Origin: Burkholderia sp. Nafp2/4-1b
GTDB lineage: Bacteria; Pseudomonadota; Gammaproteobacteria; Burkholderiales; Burkholderiaceae
DNA length: 64,000 nucleotides
NCBI RefSeq assembly: GCF_003635165.1
Contig: NZ_ML058608.1
Coordinates: forward strand, 124,001-188,000
Reading direction: 5' to 3'
The notes beneath the pieces were generated by a model. That model was not told the DNA's origin and made no database searches. It saw only the letters and a program-made list of their open reading frames with translations. Both the position numbers and the translations under genes were made by a program. Positions 6,630 to 41,683 of the stretch are shown piece by piece. Each line of letters starts with the position of its first letter. Within the stretch, counting starts at the first letter, position 1.

Positions 6630-6699
6630 GCAGACCGCAGACCGCAGACCGCAGACCGCAGACCGCAGACCGCAGACCGCAGACCGCAGACCGCAGACC
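6630..6699. repeat. GCAGACC heptanucleotide tandem array, ten units
   Basis: Ten perfect head-to-tail copies of GCAGACC occupy 6630-6699, directly after the hexanucleotide array. Seven is not a multiple of three, so slippage would shift any frame crossing it, but no gene does. It lies about 130 bases before the ethanolamine permease start, so copy number could alter promoter spacing or an upstream element. Confidence 0.95.
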
Positions 6700-6832
6700 G
6701 CACCCGCCATTACCCTCAGCGAAACGTCGGCCGTCATCTTTGCCGAATTTCGATAACACGTCGTTTAATGACTCTCTAGCATCGATTCTCAGTCGTGCGG
6801 GCCGACAGGCCGGCGCCTTTCAGGAGAATCCG

Positions 6833-8245
6833 ATGAAAGCAGAGTCGAATGGCCGGCCCGCAGCCGGCGCCAAGTCGTCCGGCCAGCCCGCGTTGCAGCA
6901 GACGCTCGGGACCTGGCAACTGTGGGGTATCGCGGTCGGCCTCGTGATTTCCGGCGAATACTTCGGCTGGAGCTACGGCTGGGCCAGCGCCGGCACGTTG
7001 GGTTTCGTCATCACCGCGCTGTTCGTCGCGGCGATGTACACCACCTTCATCTTCAGCTTCACCGAACTCACGACGTCGATCCCGCACGCGGGCGGCCCGT
7101 TCGCGTACGCGCGCCGTGCCTTCGGCCCGGCGGGCGGCTATCTGGCCGGCGCGGCGACGCTGGTCGAGTTCGTGTTCGCGCCGCCCGCGATCGCGCTCGC
7201 GATCGGTGCGTACCTGCACGTGCAGTTTCCGGGGCTCGAACCGAAACACGCGGCGATGGGCGCGTATCTCGTATTCATGGCGCTGAACATCGTCGGCGTG
7301 CAGATCGCCGCGACGTTCGAGCTGGTCGTCACGCTGTTCGCGATCTTCGAGCTACTGGTGTTCATGGGCGTCGTATCGCCGGGCTTCGCGTGGAGCAACT
7401 TCACGAAGGGCGGCTGGTCGGGCGCCGATCATTTCAGCGTCGGCGCATTCCACGGGATGTTCGCGGCGATCCCGTTCGCGATCTGGTTCTTCCTCGCGAT
7501 CGAAGGCGTCGCGATGGCCGCCGAGGAAGCGAAGAACCCGAAACGCTCGATTCCGATCGCGTACGTGGCCGGCATCCTGACCCTCGTCATACTCGCGATC
7601 GGCGTGATGGTGTTCGCCGGCGGCGCGGGCGACTGGACCAAGCTCGCGAACATCAACGACCCGCTGCCTCAGGCGATGAAGTACATCGTCGGCGCGAACA
7701 GCGGCTGGATGCACATGCTGGTGTGGCTGGGGCTGTTCGGGCTGGTCGCGTCGTTCCACGGGATCATCCTCGGCTATTCGCGCCAGATCTTCGCGCTGGC
7801 TCGCGAAGGCTACCTGCCCGAATGGCTCGGCAAGGTGCATCCGCGCTTCAAGACGCCGCATCGCGCGATTCTCGCGGGCGGCGTGGTCGGGATCGCGGCG
7901 ATCTACAGCGACGAGCTGATCCAGTTCGGCGGCCAGACGCTCACCGCAAACATCGTGACGATGTCGGTGTTCGGCGCGATCGTGATGTATATCGTAAGCA
8001 TGGCGGCGCTGTTCAAGCTGCGCCGCTCGCAGCGGAACATGGCGCGGCCGTTCCGCGCGCCGCTGTACCCGTTCTTCCCGGCATTCGCGATCGTTGCGGC
8101 CCTGATTTGCCTCGGGACGATGGTGTACTTCAACGGGCTGGTGGCGATGGTGTTCGTCGCGTTCCTCGCGCTCGGCTACGCGTACTTCCTCGCGACCCGT
8201 TCGCAGCGTGCGAGCGCGCCGGGCGACGCGCTGCTCGAGGAGTGA
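6833..8245 (+). CDS. eat: Ethanolamine permease (APC superfamily)
   Basis: The 470-residue amino-acid/polyamine/organocation transporter has about twelve membrane helices, starting with GTWQLWGIAVGLVISGEYFGW, typical of ethanolamine permeases, and IEGVAMAAEEAKNPKRSIP in the middle. It would import ethanolamine across the inner membrane. ATG 6833 is preceded by CAGGAGA. The gene lies directly upstream of eutB and eutC in the same orientation, which supports the substrate call. A hairpin lies between it and eutB. Confidence 0.88.
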   Translation: MKAESNGRPAAGAKSSGQPALQQTLGTWQLWGIAVGLVISGEYFGWSYGWASAGTLGFVITALFVAAMYTTFIFSFTELTTSIPHAGGPFAYARRAFGPAGGYLAGAATLVEFVFAPPAIALAIGAYLHVQFPGLEPKHAAMGAYLVFMALNIVGVQIAATFELVVTLFAIFELLVFMGVVSPGFAWSNFTKGGWSGADHFSVGAFHGMFAAIPFAIWFFLAIEGVAMAAEEAKNPKRSIPIAYVAGILTLVILAIGVMVFAGGAGDWTKLANINDPLPQAMKYIVGANSGWMHMLVWLGLFGLVASFHGIILGYSRQIFALAREGYLPEWLGKVHPRFKTPHRAILAGGVVGIAAIYSDELIQFGGQTLTANIVTMSVFGAIVMYIVSMAALFKLRRSQRNMARPFRAPLYPFFPAFAIVAALICLGTMVYFNGLVAMVFVAFLALGYAYFLATRSQRASAPGDALLEE

Positions 8246-8282
8246 TGATGGCGAGCCCGCACGGCGGGTCTTGACGGCAACC

Positions 8283-8308
8283 GGCGCGCCCCGTCGAACG
8301 GGCGCGCC
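8283..8308 (+). other. Strong intergenic hairpin between permease and eutB
   Basis: GGCGCGCCC (8283-8291) and GGGCGCGCC (8300-8308) form a perfect nine-pair stem with an eight-base loop. No U-tract follows, so it looks more like an mRNA-processing or stabilising hairpin than a terminator. It could set unequal expression of permease and ammonia-lyase. Confidence 0.6.
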
Positions 8309-8356
8309 GTCGCCGTCTCGCAAGGATGGGCAAGGACTGGCAAGGAGATTCGAACG

Positions 8357-9754
8357 ATGTCCTACACGGAGACGATCGGCCCGCGCACGTACCGATTCGC
8401 GGACCTGAAAACGCTGCTCGCGAAGGCGAGCCCGCTGCGCTCCGGCGACCAGCTCGCCGGCGTCGCGGCGGCGAGCGAGGAGGAGCGCGTCGCCGCGAAG
8501 ATCGCGCTCGCGGGCGTGCCGCTGAAGGCGTTCCTTAACGAAGCGCTGATTCCTTACGAACACGACGAGGTCACGCGCCTGATCCTCGACGATCACGACG
8601 CGGCCGCGTTCGCGGAGATCTCGCACCTCACCGTCGGCGACTTCCGCAACTGGCTGCTGTCGCCCGCCGCCGACGGCGCCGCGCTCGAGCGGATCGCACC
8701 GGGCCTCACGCCCGAGATGGTCGCGGCCGTGTCGAAGCTGATGCGCAACCAGGACCTGATCGCGGCGGCGCGCAAACGTCGCGTCGTCACGCGCTTTCGC
8801 AACACGGTCGGGCTGGCCGGCCGGATGTCGGTGCGGCTGCAGCCGAACCATCCGACCGACGACGTGAAGGGTATTGCCGCGTCGATGCTCGACGGGCTGA
8901 TGTACGGCTGCGGCGACGCGATGATCGGCATCAACCCGGCGACCGACAGCCTCGCGGCGATCGTGAAGCTGCTCGCGATGATCGACGGGTTCCGCGAACG
9001 CTACGGCGTGCCGACGCAGTCGTGCGTGCTCACGCACGTGACCAACACGATCGCGGCGATCGAGAAGGGCGCGCCGGTCGATCTCGTGTTCCAGTCGATC
9101 GCGGGCACCGAGAAGGCGAACGCGAGCTTTGGAATCTCGCTCGCGCTCCTCGGCGAAGCGCACGAAGCTGCGTTGTCGCTGAAGCGCGGCACCGTCGGCA
9201 ACAACCTGATGTACTTCGAGACGGGCCAGGGCAGCGCGCTGTCGGCGAACGCGCATTTCGGCGTCGACCAGCAGACCTGCGAGGTGCGCGCGTATGCGGT
9301 CGCACGCAAGTTCGACCCGTTCCTCGTGAACACGGTGGTCGGCTTCATCGGGCCGGAATACCTGTACGACGGCAAGCAGATCATCCGCGCGGGCCTCGAG
9401 GATCACTTCTGCGGCAAGCTGCTCGGCGTGCCGATGGGCTGCGACATCTGCTACACGAATCACGCGGAAGCCGACCAGGACGACATGGACACGCTGCTGA
9501 CGCTGCTCGGTGCGGCCGGCATCAACTTCATCATGGGGATTCCGGGCGCGGACGACGTGATGCTGAACTACCAGAGCACGTCGTTTCACGACCAGCTGTA
9601 CGTGCGCGAGGTGCTCGGCCTGCGCCGCGCGCCCGAGTTCGAGGAATGGCTGGAGACGATGGAGATCGCCGATGCGCACGGCGCGCTGCGCGCCGCGAGC
9701 ACGCGCGTGCCGCTGCTCGCGGGGGCGAACGACTGGATGGGGATTTCCGCATGA
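8357..9754 (+). CDS. eutB: Ethanolamine ammonia-lyase large (catalytic) subunit
   Basis: The 465-residue EutB subunit has the family's usual length and character (RFRNTVGLAGRMSVRLQPNHP, NNLMYFETGQGSALSANAHFG, MGCDICYTNHAEADQDDMD). With EutC it carries out the adenosylcobalamin-dependent conversion of ethanolamine to acetaldehyde and ammonia. AAGGAG precedes the ATG. The stop codon overlaps the eutC start (ATGA), indicating translational coupling. No carboxysome-like shell genes are nearby, so this is the short form of the pathway. Confidence 0.96.
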   Translation: MSYTETIGPRTYRFADLKTLLAKASPLRSGDQLAGVAAASEEERVAAKIALAGVPLKAFLNEALIPYEHDEVTRLILDDHDAAAFAEISHLTVGDFRNWLLSPAADGAALERIAPGLTPEMVAAVSKLMRNQDLIAAARKRRVVTRFRNTVGLAGRMSVRLQPNHPTDDVKGIAASMLDGLMYGCGDAMIGINPATDSLAAIVKLLAMIDGFRERYGVPTQSCVLTHVTNTIAAIEKGAPVDLVFQSIAGTEKANASFGISLALLGEAHEAALSLKRGTVGNNLMYFETGQGSALSANAHFGVDQQTCEVRAYAVARKFDPFLVNTVVGFIGPEYLYDGKQIIRAGLEDHFCGKLLGVPMGCDICYTNHAEADQDDMDTLLTLLGAAGINFIMGIPGADDVMLNYQSTSFHDQLYVREVLGLRRAPEFEEWLETMEIADAHGALRAASTRVPLLAGANDWMGISA

Positions 9755-36066: not shown

Positions 36067-36142
36067 GCGCCCGTAGCTCAATGGATAGAGTACTGCCCTC
36101 CGAAGGCAGGGGTTGCTGGTTCGATCCCAGCCGGGCGCGCCA
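36067..36142 (+). tRNA. tRNA-Arg (anticodon CCG)
   Basis: The acceptor stem pairs GCGCCCG (36067-36073) with CGGGCGC (36132-36138). The anticodon arm is CTGCC-CTCCGAA-GGCAG, giving anticodon CCG for codon CGG. The T-arm is GCTGG-TTCGATC-CCAGC. The discriminator G and encoded CCA end at 36142. It is the integration target of the adjacent prophage; the tRNA is intact at this junction. Confidence 0.97.
36120..36142. other. Predicted prophage attachment site core (one end)
   Basis: The integrase gene ends 54 bases beyond the tRNA 3' end, the usual layout for tyrosine integrases using the tRNA T-arm and acceptor stem as att core. The matching copy should be at the other prophage end, outside the window, so the exact core length cannot be fixed. 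Confidence 0.5.
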
Positions 36143-36195
36143 AGCCTGATAAGGCTTTCAGCAGTTCTTCCCTCCGTCGGACAGTCTCATTGCAG

Positions 36196-37272
36196 CTAAA
36201 TTGCAGCTAGCGTTGGCGCCGGCTCGATCATTAGCGGTGCGGCCCACTGCGCCAAGTGGTCTGCCGACAGGTGCGCGTACCGCTGGACCATTTCCAACGT
36301 TTCCCATCCACCGAGCTCCTTAAGTACCTGGAGCGGCGTGCCGCGTTGCACATGCCAACTCGCCCACGTGTGGCGTAGATCGTGCCAGCGGAAATCACGG
36401 ATCCCGGCACGTTTCAAGGCCTTGCGCCAAGCAGCCGTCACGGTCTGATACACCGGTCGGCCCTGGTACACGAACACGCTATCGACGAACTCGGGTGCGC
36501 GTTTTTTCGCACGCTGACGCAGCAGCACTGCGATCGCCGTATCGGACAGGGGCACCGTGATCGCCTTCTTTGCCTTCGCCTGATCTGGATGGATCCATGC
36601 GACGCGCCGCACGATGTCGACCTGTGACCACTGCAACCCGGTCACGTTTGAGCGCCGCAAGCCCGTCTCGAGGGAGAAGCGGGCCATTTCGGCCAAGTGA
36701 TCCGGCAGTTCCGCAAGCAGCCGCTCGGCCTGCGGTTGCGTCAACCAGCGGATCCGCTTCTGCACGACCTTTGCGTTCTTCGTGACCGGCACGCGGTCCA
36801 ACCATTCCCACTCGACGGCCGCGTTCAGTACGGCTTTCAACACGCCAATTACGCGCGTCACGGTGCCAGCGCTTACATGCTGGTCGGTCGTTACGACCCC
36901 GCGCTTCGTGCGGATGACCTTTGGTTCCCTCCTTTTCGCTTGGGCGATCGCGTCGATTCGGTCGCGGTCGATGTCGATCAACGCGACACCAGACAGATGT
37001 TGATCGAGCCATCGCAGATGAGTCTTCGACGTTTCCAGGCTCGGTAGACCTTCGCGGTCGCTAACGTAGCGGACGACCGCGTCGTTCCAGGTGTATCTCG
37101 GCTTCATGCCGAGTCGAGCTTGGTTCCACAAATCCACCTTCAGCCGGTCGTGGAATTCCTGCGCTTGCTCTTTGTTACTTGTGCCAGTGCTTCCCTGTAG
37201 CGGCGTTCCGCCGCCAGGGGGGTACAGCTTGTATTGCCAGTTTGGACTGGTCTTTCGTTTATAGAGCGACAT
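36196..37272 (-). CDS. int: Prophage tyrosine-recombinase integrase
   Basis: The 358-residue integrase has an N-terminal core-binding SAM-like domain and a C-terminal catalytic domain. Visible active-site residues are R206 (LETGLRRSN), H297 and R300 (HDLRHTWASWH), W323 in place of the second histidine (GGWETLEM) and nucleophile Y332 (VQRYAHLS). ATG 37272 (MSLYKRKTSPNWQYK) matches the usual start of this P2/P4-type group. The gene ends beside the tRNA. Confidence 0.93.
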   Translation of the reverse strand: MSLYKRKTSPNWQYKLYPPGGGTPLQGSTGTSNKEQAQEFHDRLKVDLWNQARLGMKPRYTWNDAVVRYVSDREGLPSLETSKTHLRWLDQHLSGVALIDIDRDRIDAIAQAKRREPKVIRTKRGVVTTDQHVSAGTVTRVIGVLKAVLNAAVEWEWLDRVPVTKNAKVVQKRIRWLTQPQAERLLAELPDHLAEMARFSLETGLRRSNVTGLQWSQVDIVRRVAWIHPDQAKAKKAITVPLSDTAIAVLLRQRAKKRAPEFVDSVFVYQGRPVYQTVTAAWRKALKRAGIRDFRWHDLRHTWASWHVQRGTPLQVLKELGGWETLEMVQRYAHLSADHLAQWAAPLMIEPAPTLAAI

Positions 37273-37583
37273 TTTTTGACTTCCTCCTGCTGATCGCCCT
37301 GCACAACTCGCGGGACCCATTCTCCGGCGAGGTAGCGCTGCAGAGCAACTATCGAGAACTTCCAGCGCTTGCCAACCTTGCAACCCGGCAGCATGCCGGC
37401 CTTGGCTTTCATGCGCACCGTCTCGGGATGTGCGCCGAGTAGTGCAGCCGCTTGCGCAAGATCAACGGTGCTCAAAGGACCATCTTCCGGTCGTGACGCA
37501 AGAGAGGGACACGCAGAACAACCCGTGGATCCGTGGCATGTGCTGTTTTTCATGGGTAAGTTATTGATTGGTAAGGATTTCAT
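37140..37583 (-). CDS. Helix-turn-helix protein, candidate excisionase
   Basis: Up to 147 residues, with an excisionase/MerR-type HTH at about residues 37-90 (LSTVDLAQAAALLGAHPETV, then GCKVGKRWKFSIVALQRYL). It precedes int on the same strand, and its C-terminal 44 codons overlap the integrase start region in another frame. The start is uncertain (ATG 37583 or 37553; no clear ribosome-binding site). Position and fold suggest directionality control. Confidence 0.65.
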   Translation of the reverse strand: MKSLPINNLPMKNSTCHGSTGCSACPSLASRPEDGPLSTVDLAQAAALLGAHPETVRMKAKAGMLPGCKVGKRWKFSIVALQRYLAGEWVPRVVQGDQQEEVKKCRSINERPVQTGNTSCTPLAAERRYREALAQVTKSKRRNSTTG

Positions 37584-37845
37584 GTGCCACGGATTGCCAC
37601 GAAAAACCCGTGGTGAGGCCTGCTAACCCGTGGCTCAAAAAATAGGCAGGTGTCCAAACCCGTGGCAAAACGGCCATAACCTGTGGCGTCGCGTCTGGGT
37701 CGAGTTTTTGCACTTCTCCGCCTTCTTTCTTCTTCTTTTTCAATGATTTAAAGAGAAGAGAGAAAGGGGCTGCGGCGATCGGCGAGGAAACCGGACACGT
37801 GGCAAAATCACCCCAACCCGTGGCAAATTCGGGGTGACCTGTGGC
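37520..37845. repeat. Iteron-like decamers (AACCCGTGGC) with A/T-rich tract: candidate replication origin
   Basis: Copies or near copies of AACCCGTGGC occur at 37520, 37528 (GATCCGTGGC), 37605, 37625, 37657, 37678 (AACCTGTGGC), 37794 (GACACGTGGC), 37815 and 37836 (GACCTGTGGC), with an inverted copy at 37586. Most point the same way. An A/T-rich polypyrimidine-then-polypurine tract (37721-37767) lies between the two groups. This is the usual look of iterons beside an unwinding element, next to a phage primase-helicase gene. Confidence 0.75.
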
Positions 37846-38069
37846 GGGTGTCCTCTCAACAATCAAGGACTTACGAGAGCAGACCCCCGAATTCCACGGT
37901 TTTTTTGCGCTGCGTGTGCTTTCCCGATGGCGAAATATGCCCGTGCAGCGTCGCGACGCCATCGTTGCCGGCGTTTGGCGGCGGACGAGCGGTGCCGGAG
38001 CCCGGACAGCGGCGCGCAGACGGTCGGTTGACCACGAGGGCGTTTTCGCGCGGCGAATGGGCTGCACGG
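37584..38069. other. Non-coding region between primase gene and excisionase-like gene
   Basis: The 486 bases contain most of the iteron-like repeats and the A/T-rich tract. A 170-codon minus-strand frame exists but has repeat-derived, low-complexity sequence and no start signal, so I do not call it. The part 37860-38069 shows no further repeat. Confidence 0.6.
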
Positions 38070-40862
38070 TCATGCGCGGGTTCCCTGCACGGCGTCGGTG
38101 GCCAGATCGTCACGGACCGCCACATACAATCCGAACGTGGCGAGCCGCTCGAGCGAGATCGGCATCAGGTGCGCGACGCGACGGGTGTAGATGCGCCGCT
38201 CGACTTCCTTCTCACCCACCACGACGCCAGCGTGCTTGAGCTGCGCCTTGAACACGCGGTCGGATTTCACCGGCAGGCCGTTCCATTTGTCGCGCAGTGC
38301 GCTCGTGTGCGCGAGGTGGTCCATTACGTGACCCGTGCGCAGCAGGAGGCAAAATTCGCCGTCGACGGTGTCGAACGTGAACGGGTGCTTGTAATTGCCG
38401 CTGTCGATCTCCGACAGGATGGTTTCCATGATCCAGACCCACGGTTCGCGATCGGCGCTGGTCTCGGCGATATGGCCGTTCATCTCGGCGAGCAGATCGC
38501 GCGGGAAGTCGCCTGCGGCCGGATCCACACCCGCGAACTCGGTCAGGTAGCGCCAGGCGAGCGCCACGGCCGCATAGTTGCCGGCCATGCGCCGGGCACC
38601 GTCGTCCTCGCCGCTCGCCCGACAGTTGGCGAGCGCCTCATCGAGCAGCGTCCCGTACTGTTCACGTACCGCCCGCTTGTCCAGGCTCGCGAGAAACTCG
38701 AGCCAGGGCCGCACCGGGAAGCGCGGCAGATCGTCCGGCATAAGCGGCCCGCGCTTGCTGGTCAGGGTGGTGCGCACCAGCTTGCCGAGCAGGCTCCTGA
38801 CCGGCACGTCCTCGCCGGCGAGCATCACCGGCGCGCACAGCAGATATTCGGTCATGTCGCTGCCGCGGCGGGTGACGGTGTACTGGTAGTTCTCCTGCAG
38901 CAGGCCCACGGCCTTGTCGATCACGTCCTGCCGGCGCGCGGACAGCTCTTCCCAGCCGACCGGGTGACTGGTGTGGCTGATGCTGGTGAGCAGCCGAAAT
39001 TCGGTCTGCAGGCTCTGGCCGGAGAACATCGTGAAGGCGATCGACCGCTCGAGCCGCTTGATCAGTGTGGACTTGCCGGCACCCTTGTTAGCCTGAATCG
39101 TCAGATGCGGCCAGAAGCCCAGCAGGGCCTTCAGATGGCCGCCCAGCGCCCACACGAGCGGGATCGTTGCGGCGTTCTGCTTGAAGGTCGTCTGGTACGC
39201 GCTGATGATGCGGCGTGCATCGCTGACGGGACCACTCGGAAACGTCAGGTTGTGATACGGACACTGCTTGTCCGCTTCGGTGAAATAGCAGTCGGGCCCT
39301 TCGTTGACGATCAGGCGCCCGTCGCGCCACGCCAGGCCGACGAAGTTCGCGGCCTGGCGGGCGCCCAGGTCGGCGCCGCGCTCCAGGATGTTGACCATGC
39401 GCTTGAACGGTGCAGGCGCAAAGATCCAGCCGAGTTTGGCCCACTGGTCGATGTTGTTGAACTGCTCGTCGGTCATGACGCGCCGGATGAGCGTCGGCCC
39501 GTGGCGCGCCGATTGGGCGCTCACGGCAAAGTACACGGTGGGGGCCTGGTCGGCGTCACCGGTCATCGTGGAGGTGGCACTGGCCACAGATACGCGGCTC
39601 ATGCCGGCAATCCGGAAGCCGCATAGATCGGTCATAACGGGCGTCTCGACGCCTGATTCCTCGTTACGGTCCATTTTGGTGATGTAGCTCGTGAAGTCGG
39701 GCCGTACACGAAAGCGCCAGTACTGCGCGAAGTCGTGCGACGGCAGGAACAGACGCGGCCGGCCGCGGCGGGTGGCGTCGCCGGCTAGACCCGCGATCAG
39801 CCAAGGCTCGAACTGCTCGAGCGCGCGGGCGAGCTCAGCAGGCCCGCGCAGCTGCAGGTAGTCGTTCACGTCGTTGATGGGTTTGGGTGTTTTCTCACCA
39901 TCCGCGAGATCGGCCAACCACCCGGCCTGATCGACCAGCACGGCGCTGATGTTCAGGCTCGTGAGCCGCTCGTAGAGCGCCCACGCAGCTTCCGGCCCGG
40001 GCCGGTGCCCGGCACGCGGATGGCCGTCGGGGAAGGGCGCGTCGTTGTCCAGGCAGATCACGACCTGCTTGCCGCGCAGGAACGCGAAATCAATTGCCTC
40101 GACGTTGGCCAGGCCGCGCAGCGCGAGTGCGGCCACACCTGGCAGTGCACATGTATCGACCGACAGCGCATTGATCGCGCTCTCGAGGAGATAGACGCGC
40201 CGGGCCCGCTCGAGCCGGCGCGTGTCGGCACTCCAAAAATAGCCGGTCTTCTCGCCCTGAGTCTGTGTCTTGACGCCACCGTTAAGCACCGGATCGACAT
40301 AGCGCAGGTCGACCGCGACGATGCGCGCGTCACCAGGCGCACGCACGATGAACGCCGCGGCGGGCCCACCGTGGCCGACGTCACCTGCGGCGACCTTCGC
40401 GCTGGTCCAGGTGTTGAAGCCAAGCGTGCGGGCCCGGATGGCGGCATCGATCGCGGCGCCCGAAATGCTGCGGCCGACGAGATAGTCGCGCACCGATTCA
40501 CGCTCGGCGAGACACCGATCGGCGATGTATTCGACGGTAGACTTGTCGCGCCGCTCGGCCGGTGCCGGCCGGTCAAGTGGCAAGCCATATGCGTCGTGCA
40601 GGAAACGCACCGCGTCGGCAACTGAGCCCCCGCGGCTATACATCACCAGATCAATGCACGAGCCACCGGCGCCGGCGCTGTGATCCCGCCAACCGGTACC
40701 GTGCTTCGGGTGGTCCACATAGATCGACAGCGACGGGTTTTTATCGTCGTGCTGCGGCGAGTGGTAGAGCGCGCGCTCGCCGCCGCGGCCGCGTTTCAGG
40801 CCGAGGCGCTCGGCCAGATCGTGCAGGTCGATGCGCTGCTTGAGTTCGTCGATGGTGGCCAT
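38070..40862 (-). CDS. Phage primase-helicase (degenerate CHC2 / Toprim / ATPase)
   Basis: The 930-residue protein has an N-terminal CHC2-like region (about 30-85) where the usual zinc cysteines are mostly replaced (H34, H38, H61, C69). A Toprim domain follows with E227 (LLESAINALS) and D272/D274 (CLDNDA), then a C-terminal DUF927-like ATPase with Walker A NKGAGKST near 592-599. Such proteins combine priming and helicase functions in P4-alpha-like replication. ATG 40862 overlaps no upstream gene. Next to the iteron region it is the likely replication initiator. Confidence 0.85.
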   Translation of the reverse strand: MATIDELKQRIDLHDLAERLGLKRGRGGERALYHSPQHDDKNPSLSIYVDHPKHGTGWRDHSAGAGGSCIDLVMYSRGGSVADAVRFLHDAYGLPLDRPAPAERRDKSTVEYIADRCLAERESVRDYLVGRSISGAAIDAAIRARTLGFNTWTSAKVAAGDVGHGGPAAAFIVRAPGDARIVAVDLRYVDPVLNGGVKTQTQGEKTGYFWSADTRRLERARRVYLLESAINALSVDTCALPGVAALALRGLANVEAIDFAFLRGKQVVICLDNDAPFPDGHPRAGHRPGPEAAWALYERLTSLNISAVLVDQAGWLADLADGEKTPKPINDVNDYLQLRGPAELARALEQFEPWLIAGLAGDATRRGRPRLFLPSHDFAQYWRFRVRPDFTSYITKMDRNEESGVETPVMTDLCGFRIAGMSRVSVASATSTMTGDADQAPTVYFAVSAQSARHGPTLIRRVMTDEQFNNIDQWAKLGWIFAPAPFKRMVNILERGADLGARQAANFVGLAWRDGRLIVNEGPDCYFTEADKQCPYHNLTFPSGPVSDARRIISAYQTTFKQNAATIPLVWALGGHLKALLGFWPHLTIQANKGAGKSTLIKRLERSIAFTMFSGQSLQTEFRLLTSISHTSHPVGWEELSARRQDVIDKAVGLLQENYQYTVTRRGSDMTEYLLCAPVMLAGEDVPVRSLLGKLVRTTLTSKRGPLMPDDLPRFPVRPWLEFLASLDKRAVREQYGTLLDEALANCRASGEDDGARRMAGNYAAVALAWRYLTEFAGVDPAAGDFPRDLLAEMNGHIAETSADREPWVWIMETILSEIDSGNYKHPFTFDTVDGEFCLLLRTGHVMDHLAHTSALRDKWNGLPVKSDRVFKAQLKHAGVVVGEKEVERRIYTRRVAHLMPISLERLATFGLYVAVRDDLATDAVQGTRA

Positions 40863-40864
40863 CG

Positions 40865-41236
40865 TCAGCGGACCTGCTCGCCAGAGGGCGGGAATACCGC
40901 GAGCTGATTGGCGGCGAGCTGGCACATCGCGACCTGCAGTTCTGTGCGCGCGGTGATCGCATCGTCGAGCATGGCGCGCAGTCGCCACCGATGCTGATCG
41001 AGATTGCGGTTCGCGTGCGCGATCGCGAGGATACGCGACGCGCCGGTGCCGGCCGGCACTCCGGAGGCCAGATGCGTGACGATCCATTTGTCGGGATGAC
41101 CGTCCGGTAACGCCGATTCGGCGTGCAGACCGAACACCGCCCCGACCTCGTTCGGTACGCTCACCGGCTCGCCGACGACCGTATGGAGCCCCGTATCGGT
41201 CAGCAGCTCGTAGCGGATCGTGAATGTGTTGGACAT
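40865..41236 (-). CDS. Small prophage protein of unknown function
   Basis: The 123-residue protein (MSNTFTIRYELLTDTG...) ends two bases before the primase start, so it is co-transcribed. The central IVTHLASGVPAGTGASRILAIAHANRNLDQHRWRLRAMLDD segment suggests a helical C-terminus. GAGG lies nine bases before ATG 41236; ATG 41242 is an alternative. No known domain recognised. Confidence 0.65.
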   Translation of the reverse strand: MSNTFTIRYELLTDTGLHTVVGEPVSVPNEVGAVFGLHAESALPDGHPDKWIVTHLASGVPAGTGASRILAIAHANRNLDQHRWRLRAMLDDAITARTELQVAMCQLAANQLAVFPPSGEQVR

Positions 41237-41241
41237 GGTCA

Positions 41242-41436
41242 TCACCCTCGCGGCGGCACGGACCAGGCGAGCGCGCTCACCAGGACAACAAGACCGGTGA
41301 GGTCGAAGGCGAACGCAATCCCGTGTGGCTGACGCACACTGAGCCGGCACAGGGCCGCTGCAACCAGCGCGTGGATACCGGCGCAACAAAACACGAGCAT
41401 CAGCAGCGAGCCGATGCCGAAAACGTAGGGCTTCAT
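41242..41436 (-). CDS. Small membrane protein of prophage early operon
   Basis: The 64-residue protein has two hydrophobic segments (VFGIGSLLMLVFCCAGIHAL and IAFAFDLTGLVVLVSALAW). AAGGAA precedes the ATG. It is packed between other early genes. It could act in superinfection exclusion, but that is a guess from size and location. Confidence 0.6.
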   Translation of the reverse strand: MKPYVFGIGSLLMLVFCCAGIHALVAAALCRLSVRQPHGIAFAFDLTGLVVLVSALAWSVPPRG

Positions 41437-41479
41437 GGTGGAGTTCCTTGTAAGCGCCGGCCGGCCAGCCGGCGCGGCG

Positions 41480-41683
41480 TTATTCGTCGAGGTCGTTGGC
41501 GGCCGAGCGCTTGACGTCGAATGCGCGTCGCGAGCGGACCTGTTCGCGCTCCTGCATCGCGCGGGCGGCGGATTCGACGACCAGGCGGACCGCGCGGTGG
41601 CGCATCGACGCCTCGAAATCGCCGACCATGCGCAGGCGGTGCCAGGCCGCGCGCAGGTCGAGTTCGGTGAGCGGGGCGCGCAT
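41480..41683 (-). CDS. Small helical prophage protein
   Basis: The 67-residue charged protein (MRAPLTELDLRAAWHRLRMV...) is predicted mostly helical and rich in Arg. It lies four bases after the next upstream gene in the early operon. No family recognised. Confidence 0.55.
   Translation of the reverse strand: MRAPLTELDLRAAWHRLRMVGDFEASMRHRAVRLVVESAARAMQEREQVRSRRAFDVKRSAANDLDE

Follow-up and report, generated by a model that had tools for sequence, protein, structure and literature searches.

A 64,000-nucleotide stretch of the genome of Burkholderia sp. Nafp2/4-1b (hereafter the window; contig NZ_ML058608.1, positions 124,001 to 188,000, numbered here from 1) carries a P2-like prophage whose replication gene, rep (38070-40862, minus strand), encodes a primase-helicase of 930 amino acids. 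Directly 3' of rep stands an array of short repeats, or iterons, arranged in two groups on either side of an A/T-rich stretch. The sequence-only reading of this DNA suggested there a candidate theta replication origin of the phage P4 alpha type. We describe the array, its conservation and its covariation with Rep, and consider it as a candidate origin served by the neighbouring gene.

The iteron array and its conservation

Between 37520 and 37845, the decamer AACCCGTGGC is found ten times with at most two mismatches, nine times on the plus strand and once on the minus strand. This agrees with the sequence-only reading, which had counted about ten copies, mostly in one orientation and in two groups. 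Three copies are exact (iterons 6, 37625-37634; 7, 37657-37666; 10, 37815-37824). Four have one mismatch (iterons 1, 37520-37529; 3, 37586-37595, inverted, on the minus strand; 5, 37605-37614; 8, 37678-37687) and three have two (iterons 2, 37528-37537; 9, 37794-37803; 11, 37836-37845). Iterons 1 and 2 form an outer pair offset by 8 bp, and iterons 1, 2, 3, 5, 9 and 11 were aligned in 81 loci. Two extra sites, both inverted, were recognised by position in relatives: iteron 4 (37596-37605, minus strand), degenerate in the window, and iteron 12 (37893-37902, minus strand, two mismatches). Base 4 of both follows the repeat class defined below. The array therefore totals 12 iterons and spans 37520-37902; the earlier extent, which ended at 37845, stops slightly short of the last site. 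Read on the plus strand of the window, the order is two direct iterons, a site matching the consensus of integration host factor (IHF), two inverted and four direct iterons, then the A/T tract, three direct iterons, a second IHF-consensus site and one inverted iteron. The 12 sites keep a fixed register around the tract, and spacings such as 21, 21 and 21, 32, 20 recur across phages.

In 37520-37902, 3, 7 and 11 copies are observed at up to 0, 1 and 2 mismatches, versus means of 0, 0.04 and 0.59 and maxima of 0, 1 and 4 in dinucleotide shuffles of the same interval (500 per mismatch threshold). Over the whole window, the decamer occurs 12 times at up to one mismatch for 5.45 expected. Since this enrichment is only mild, the signal of the array is its clustering.

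The array occupies the same place in nine named Burkholderia phages, the Rep proteins of which are 86-89% identical to that of the window. In AP3 and Momento the copies have C at base 4, and the decamer scan therefore missed these arrays until the region was aligned. Counting the window and keeping near-duplicates, 118 loci have a Rep of 71.5% identity or more, and 112 of them carry at least four copies within 900 bp downstream of rep. Among the six others, two end within 220 bp, three have 3 copies, and the last, in which the contig ends inside rep, shows no array. The lack of the repeats in related prophages, which the sequence-only reading had named as fatal to an origin, is thus not what is found at this level of identity. 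More distant relatives are mixed. CCAC-core arrays lie 3' of rep in L121, L124, L135, L336, L337, L338 and L341, and weaker ones in L123, L334, L335, L343 and L344. In the viral contigs L336, L337, L338 and L341 (Rep 62% identical), a repeat of the TCCACAAGTT/TCCACAGGTT type occurs 8-9 times, beginning 650-1460 bp 3' of rep, with IHF-consensus matches within; it is a further repeat class, outside the covariation test.

The A/T-rich pyrimidine/purine tract (37721-37767), noted by the sequence-only reading, has 32% G+C versus 67% for the window. Its duplex stability is low: position 37722 starts the fourth least stable among spaced 50-bp stretches of the 39.5-kb prophage. The tract is largely invariant across 10 aligned sequences and is the proposed melting site.

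The IHF consensus, WATCAANNNNTTR, has two matches in the 64-kb window, both inside the array and mutually inverted. The site near rep (37861-37873, plus strand) keeps its place in all 81 loci and the site far from rep (37557-37569, minus strand) in 42 of them, whereas 0.0025 matches per locus are expected from mononucleotide shuffles. Among 60 loci with Rep less than 80% identical, 25 have at least six iterons in 500 bp, and all 25 have an IHF-consensus match within the array. Eleven of these have at least two matches: nine pairs are 302-303 bp apart and inverted, one is 290 bp apart, and that of L124 is 21 bp apart in the same direction. In the 35 distant loci without such an array, any match within 1800 bp was found in 8. 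IHF may act at the array. With the DnaA-box consensus, no match to TTATNCACA was found in 36143-41500, and none within one mismatch of TTATCCACA in 37450-38070.

Covariation of the repeats with the Rep tail

As the sequence-only reading had proposed, rep is a Toprim primase-helicase gene with the coordinates given above. CHC2 (Zn_ribbon_DnaG) and Toprim_3 domains were found in the protein and, at E up to 1, Toprim_3 is present in 48/48 family members and CHC2 in 40/48. In fold comparisons, the front part of Rep matches DnaG/T7 primases (T7 gp4), residues 358-917 match Rep of SaPIbov1, a Staphylococcus aureus pathogenicity island (SaPI), and residues 377-921 match Cch of the staphylococcal cassette chromosome mec (SCCmec). 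The protein ends in a winged-helix-like domain (residues about 807-908), and this tail matches that of SaPIbov1 Rep as well as TcpK, a wing-reading DNA binder. By analogy, the C-terminal domain may be the part of Rep that reads the iterons.

Rep matches were found in 149 loci (window included) and 139 entered the alignment. Left out were L050 and L110 (internal stop), L138, L146 and L148 (short), and five loci with a match starting after residue 5. The base-4 test set holds 81 distinct Rep sequences at least 80% identical, with at least four repeat copies each. L046, L050 and L058, with 3 copies each, all of C type, were left unclassed; L046 and L058 both carry N842. The class label is the majority of the array. 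Single iteron columns therefore agree with it partly by construction, which does not hold for the Rep columns.

At base 4, 67 loci are A-type and 14 are C-type. These classes are separated without exception by Rep residues 819 (I/M), 821 (G, S or A/C), 842 (R/N) and 897 (P or A/R). They are separated by none of the 1319 variable coding columns in Rep 1-790, and by 0 of the 79 variable columns within invariant residues of Rep 791-930. Between the genes, 11 of 567 columns separate them and ten of these are base 4 of iterons, a figure that is partly built in because the class was assigned from the array itself; 10 of the 12 iteron base-4 positions keep full association. At base 7, 66 of 72 loci are A-type and six, including the window, are G-type. 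Here the separation without exception is by Rep residues 897 (A), 898 (H), 900 (V/M) and 913 (Y). The perfect coding columns number four, all in 897-913, and between the genes a single column is perfect, which is base 7 in one iteron. Nine loci mixed at base 7 were excluded from this test: L034, which carries the H898 set, counts 7 G against 5 A, and seven of the eight Y898 loci lean to A.

The tree of Rep 1-790 requires 10 class changes at base 4, 3 of them forced by starred branches. Residue 842 follows the class in 3 of 3 independent pairs on these branches. The best tree provides 10 independent pairs for this residue, which must follow in all of them because its match is without exception. 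Eight previously unused loci fit at base 4 in 8 of 8 cases, one being C-type; at base 7 the lean agrees with the residues in seven of the eight, the exception being L169. The covariation between the repeats and the Rep tail is strong.

Candidate origin function and its alternatives

Because the repeats and the tip of Rep change together across phages, the array is very probably the replication origin of the phage, with the neighbouring gene as its dedicated initiator. By reference to homologues for binding, ring loading, melting, unwinding direction and priming, the C-terminal winged-helix-like domain of Rep would bind the iterons and Rep would assemble as ring helicases on the two iteron groups; IHF would bend the array DNA and the A/T tract would melt. 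The MCM-like motor would then unwind the DNA in the 3'-to-5' direction, the fused DnaG-type primase would prime, and the host polymerase would extend, so that replication would start from the array, probably in theta mode. In these P2-family phages, rolling-circle initiation by GpA would thus be replaced. A wider proposal, to which we give even chances as a whole, is that a branch of the P2 family has given up GpA rolling-circle replication in favour of a self-loading replicon of the SaPI kind, with an MCM-like initiator to which a DnaG-type primase is fused. The C-terminal domain of this initiator would read the iterons with a beta-wing, in the TcpK fashion, rather than with a recognition helix. 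Reader and iterons would have been adjusted to each other and passed on as a unit, so that even close relatives would differ in origin type, the types being incompatible.

Several observations weigh against an origin read by Rep. Strongly supported independent class changes are few (3 at base 4 and 2 at base 7), below sign-test significance. L109 and L169 carry the A-type residues (Y898), yet have 4 G to 3 A each at base 7. L048, with an A-type array, has one C-type copy, the first to follow the A/T tract when read on the Rep strand; this mixed array is perhaps a recombination trace or an intermediate. Base 4 is also matched perfectly by a spacer column, position 37573 (rep-downstream position 497), which lies outside the iterons and the IHF match and has T or C in the A class and A or G in the C class. 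A minimum of circular, detrended GC skew falls near the array in KL3 only, and not in AP3, Carl1, KS5 or the window prophage. Finally, many Rep relatives (48-68% identity), including those of KS14, FLC5 and FLC10, have no array in the stretches searched 3' of the gene.

The repeats adjoin the genes of the excisionase (Xis) and integrase (Int), and IHF sites like those of the array are typical of integrase/excisionase regions. They might hence be operator or arm sites of this module, for DNA bending in recombination or for control of int, all the more as the listed xis open reading frame (ORF) overlaps the outermost iterons. We consider this very unlikely, since the core of the attachment (att) site is on the distal side of int, some 1.4 kb from the array, and the repeat classes, which Rep tracks without exception, are tracked at 0.67 by the Xis helix-turn-helix (HTH) and at 0.53 by Int (55/81 loci). 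Xis was matched in 54 of the 81 loci; there, the association of columns encoded outside the iterons rises to 0.89 at residue 15, next to them, and to 0.86 from residue 24 on. The perfect columns, residues 17 and 20, vary with the repeat class because the first codons, from the listed start at 37583, run through iterons 1-2; the true start may be further in. Highly improbable, and the least probable of the alternatives, is that the association of the Rep tail with the repeats comes from physical linkage, adjacent DNA being exchanged as a block without any binding. The tail codons do adjoin the array, the Rep 1-790 tree implies block movement between lineages, and partial association extends to the Xis columns and to the nearby spacer, where other columns reach up to 0.71. 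However, full association is seen in none of the 79 columns in invariant tail residues and in one spacer column, versus 10 of the 12 base-4 positions, and a second base, base 7, maps to a different, overlapping set of Rep residues. We conclude from these alignments that selection links the Rep tail with the repeats, binding being the plain reason.

Binding might serve another end: Rep could occupy the array only for transcriptional control of its own gene or of int/xis, for incompatibility or for copy control, with replication starting elsewhere. Covariation indicates recognition rather than initiation, iterons also regulate in many replicons, and GC skew fails to mark the array in four of five genomes. 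We nevertheless hold this to be very unlikely, because the array is 3' of rep, away from the rep promoter, and holds an A/T tract and IHF-consensus sites; moreover, regions at the equivalent place acted as origins in studies of SaPIs and of phage-inducible chromosomal islands (PICIs) (PMC6092414, PMC7581432).

Prophage setting and comparison with known replicons

The prophage is integrated at tRNA-Arg(CCG). The attL region, at the 3' end of this gene (36098-36159, plus strand), has a 65-bp, 94%-identical partner copy at 75601-75665 (continued coordinates, same contig), from which we deduce a prophage of about 39.5 kb extending beyond the window. On the minus strand, the order is an Ogr-like activator, a Bro-N antirepressor, small ORFs, rep, the array, the excisionase-like HTH_17 ORF (37140-37583) and the tyrosine integrase (36196-37383). 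Tail, baseplate and endolysin genes lie upstream of this block, and head-completion genes are also in the window. In the 92 contigs of the genome, GpA (PF05840) has a single match, on contig C28, and none on the prophage contig C12. Virion gene sets are annotated in full in KL3, AP3, Carl1 and KS5. In these phages the primase is the sole annotated replication gene, KS5 having also a reverse transcriptase, and many genes are unnamed.

Rep relatives occur in other settings. KS14, FLC5 and FLC10 (L015, L016, L017; Rep 65% identity) are plasmid-like prophages that may use another origin, since FLC5 and FLC10 have A/T-rich repeats with 11-bp spacing near a ParA gene (L017 7534-7647) and a RepB initiator falls, by coordinates, in KS14 in the table of PMC3091744. 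In the Microcystis phage vB_MaeS-yong1 (L018), a Rep relative (55%) lies near a single-stranded DNA-binding protein gene and no array was seen; as this phage is not classed as P2-like, the primase-helicase is not confined to P2-like phages. L146 and L149 are opposite ends of one 34-kb Paraburkholderia lycopersici contig, each with half of one rep, a placement that would fit a circular phage genome of plasmid-like kind; the DNA 3' of rep showed no array. L346 (G021:C1:184000-202000, about 6644-9251) is a related prophage remnant in which integrase, excisionase-like ORF and iteron array (6 copies in L183) are kept and Rep is reduced to its C-terminal part; the DNA then continues into an ORF that by eye resembles a P2 capsid-scaffold gene. 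L347 is a second C-terminal-only Rep match.

No mention of this origin was found in the accessible parts of papers on phages of the Burkholderia cepacia complex (PMC3091744, PMC5247547) and of Ralstonia, the term iteron being absent from those in which it was looked for, and literature searches returned no description of it. For a group of Burkholderiales P2-like phages annotated with a primase alone for replication, the array is a candidate for the origin so far missing. The natural A/C and A/G switches could be read as a recognition code for SaPI-type initiators, and the finding bears on possible replicon acquisition between satellites and phages.

With P2, the prophage and its relatives share P2-type virion genes, but instead of a GpA rolling-circle origin there is no GpA match on the prophage contig. 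In the table of PMC3091744, no KS5, KS14 or KL3 protein is given as similar to P2 A or B. Conservation, repeat-protein covariation and the lack of a GpA match on the prophage contig strongly support the core of the sequence-only reading, in which the neighbouring primase-helicase serves an iteron origin of a P2-like prophage that has no GpA. Its P4-alpha label, however, is not supported. The P4 alpha system resembles the present one by a primase and a helicase in one protein, iterons and a phage context; its primase domain, however, is of the archaeo-eukaryotic primase (AEP) type, and its cis-acting regions ori and crr lie apart. The present protein has a CHC2/Toprim primase, with DnaG-type domains and a fold matching DnaG/T7 gp4, and a Cch/MCM-like helicase, the part from helicase to tail matching SCCmec Cch and SaPIbov1 Rep. 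The motif forms one cluster in each of 5 genomes, where the next best stretch of 450 bp has 1-2 repeat matches. The SCCmec Cch and Cch2 helicases lack a fused DnaG-type primase and belong to a different element with different repeats. TcpK of plasmid pCW3, a conjugation accessory protein, is matched by the Rep tail at 8% identity, a structural likeness that does not establish common ancestry.

The closest likeness is to the rep-ori replicon of SaPIs and PICIs (SaPIbov1 Rep, EcCICFT073): the helicase has the SaPIbov1 Rep fold, the candidate origin adjoins rep on its 3' side, the iterons flank an A/T-rich stretch in two groups, and the C-terminal domain is the putative reader. In the available text of PMC7581432, the C-terminal domain of SaPI Rep recognises the origin directly downstream of its gene, and that of PMC6092414 describes plasmid maintenance in E. 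coli DH5alpha by a rep-ori fragment from a PICI. This layout has so far been known from small parasitic islands such as SaPIs and held private to PICIs, to which the present phages would then be an exception. Unlike SaPIbov1 and SaPI5, which have AEP primases, Rep has a DnaG-type primase fused to its helicase, and unlike SaPIs and PICIs the array has conserved IHF-consensus sites. The replicon sits in complete P2-like phages, with virion genes in the window prophage and its relatives, whereas PICI satellites have no virion set and depend on a helper. Our verdict is a probable SaPI/PICI-type, Rep-bound origin in GpA-less P2-family phages; the replicon type itself is known, and what is new is its likely presence in full phages of the P2 family and its combination there with a DnaG-type primase.
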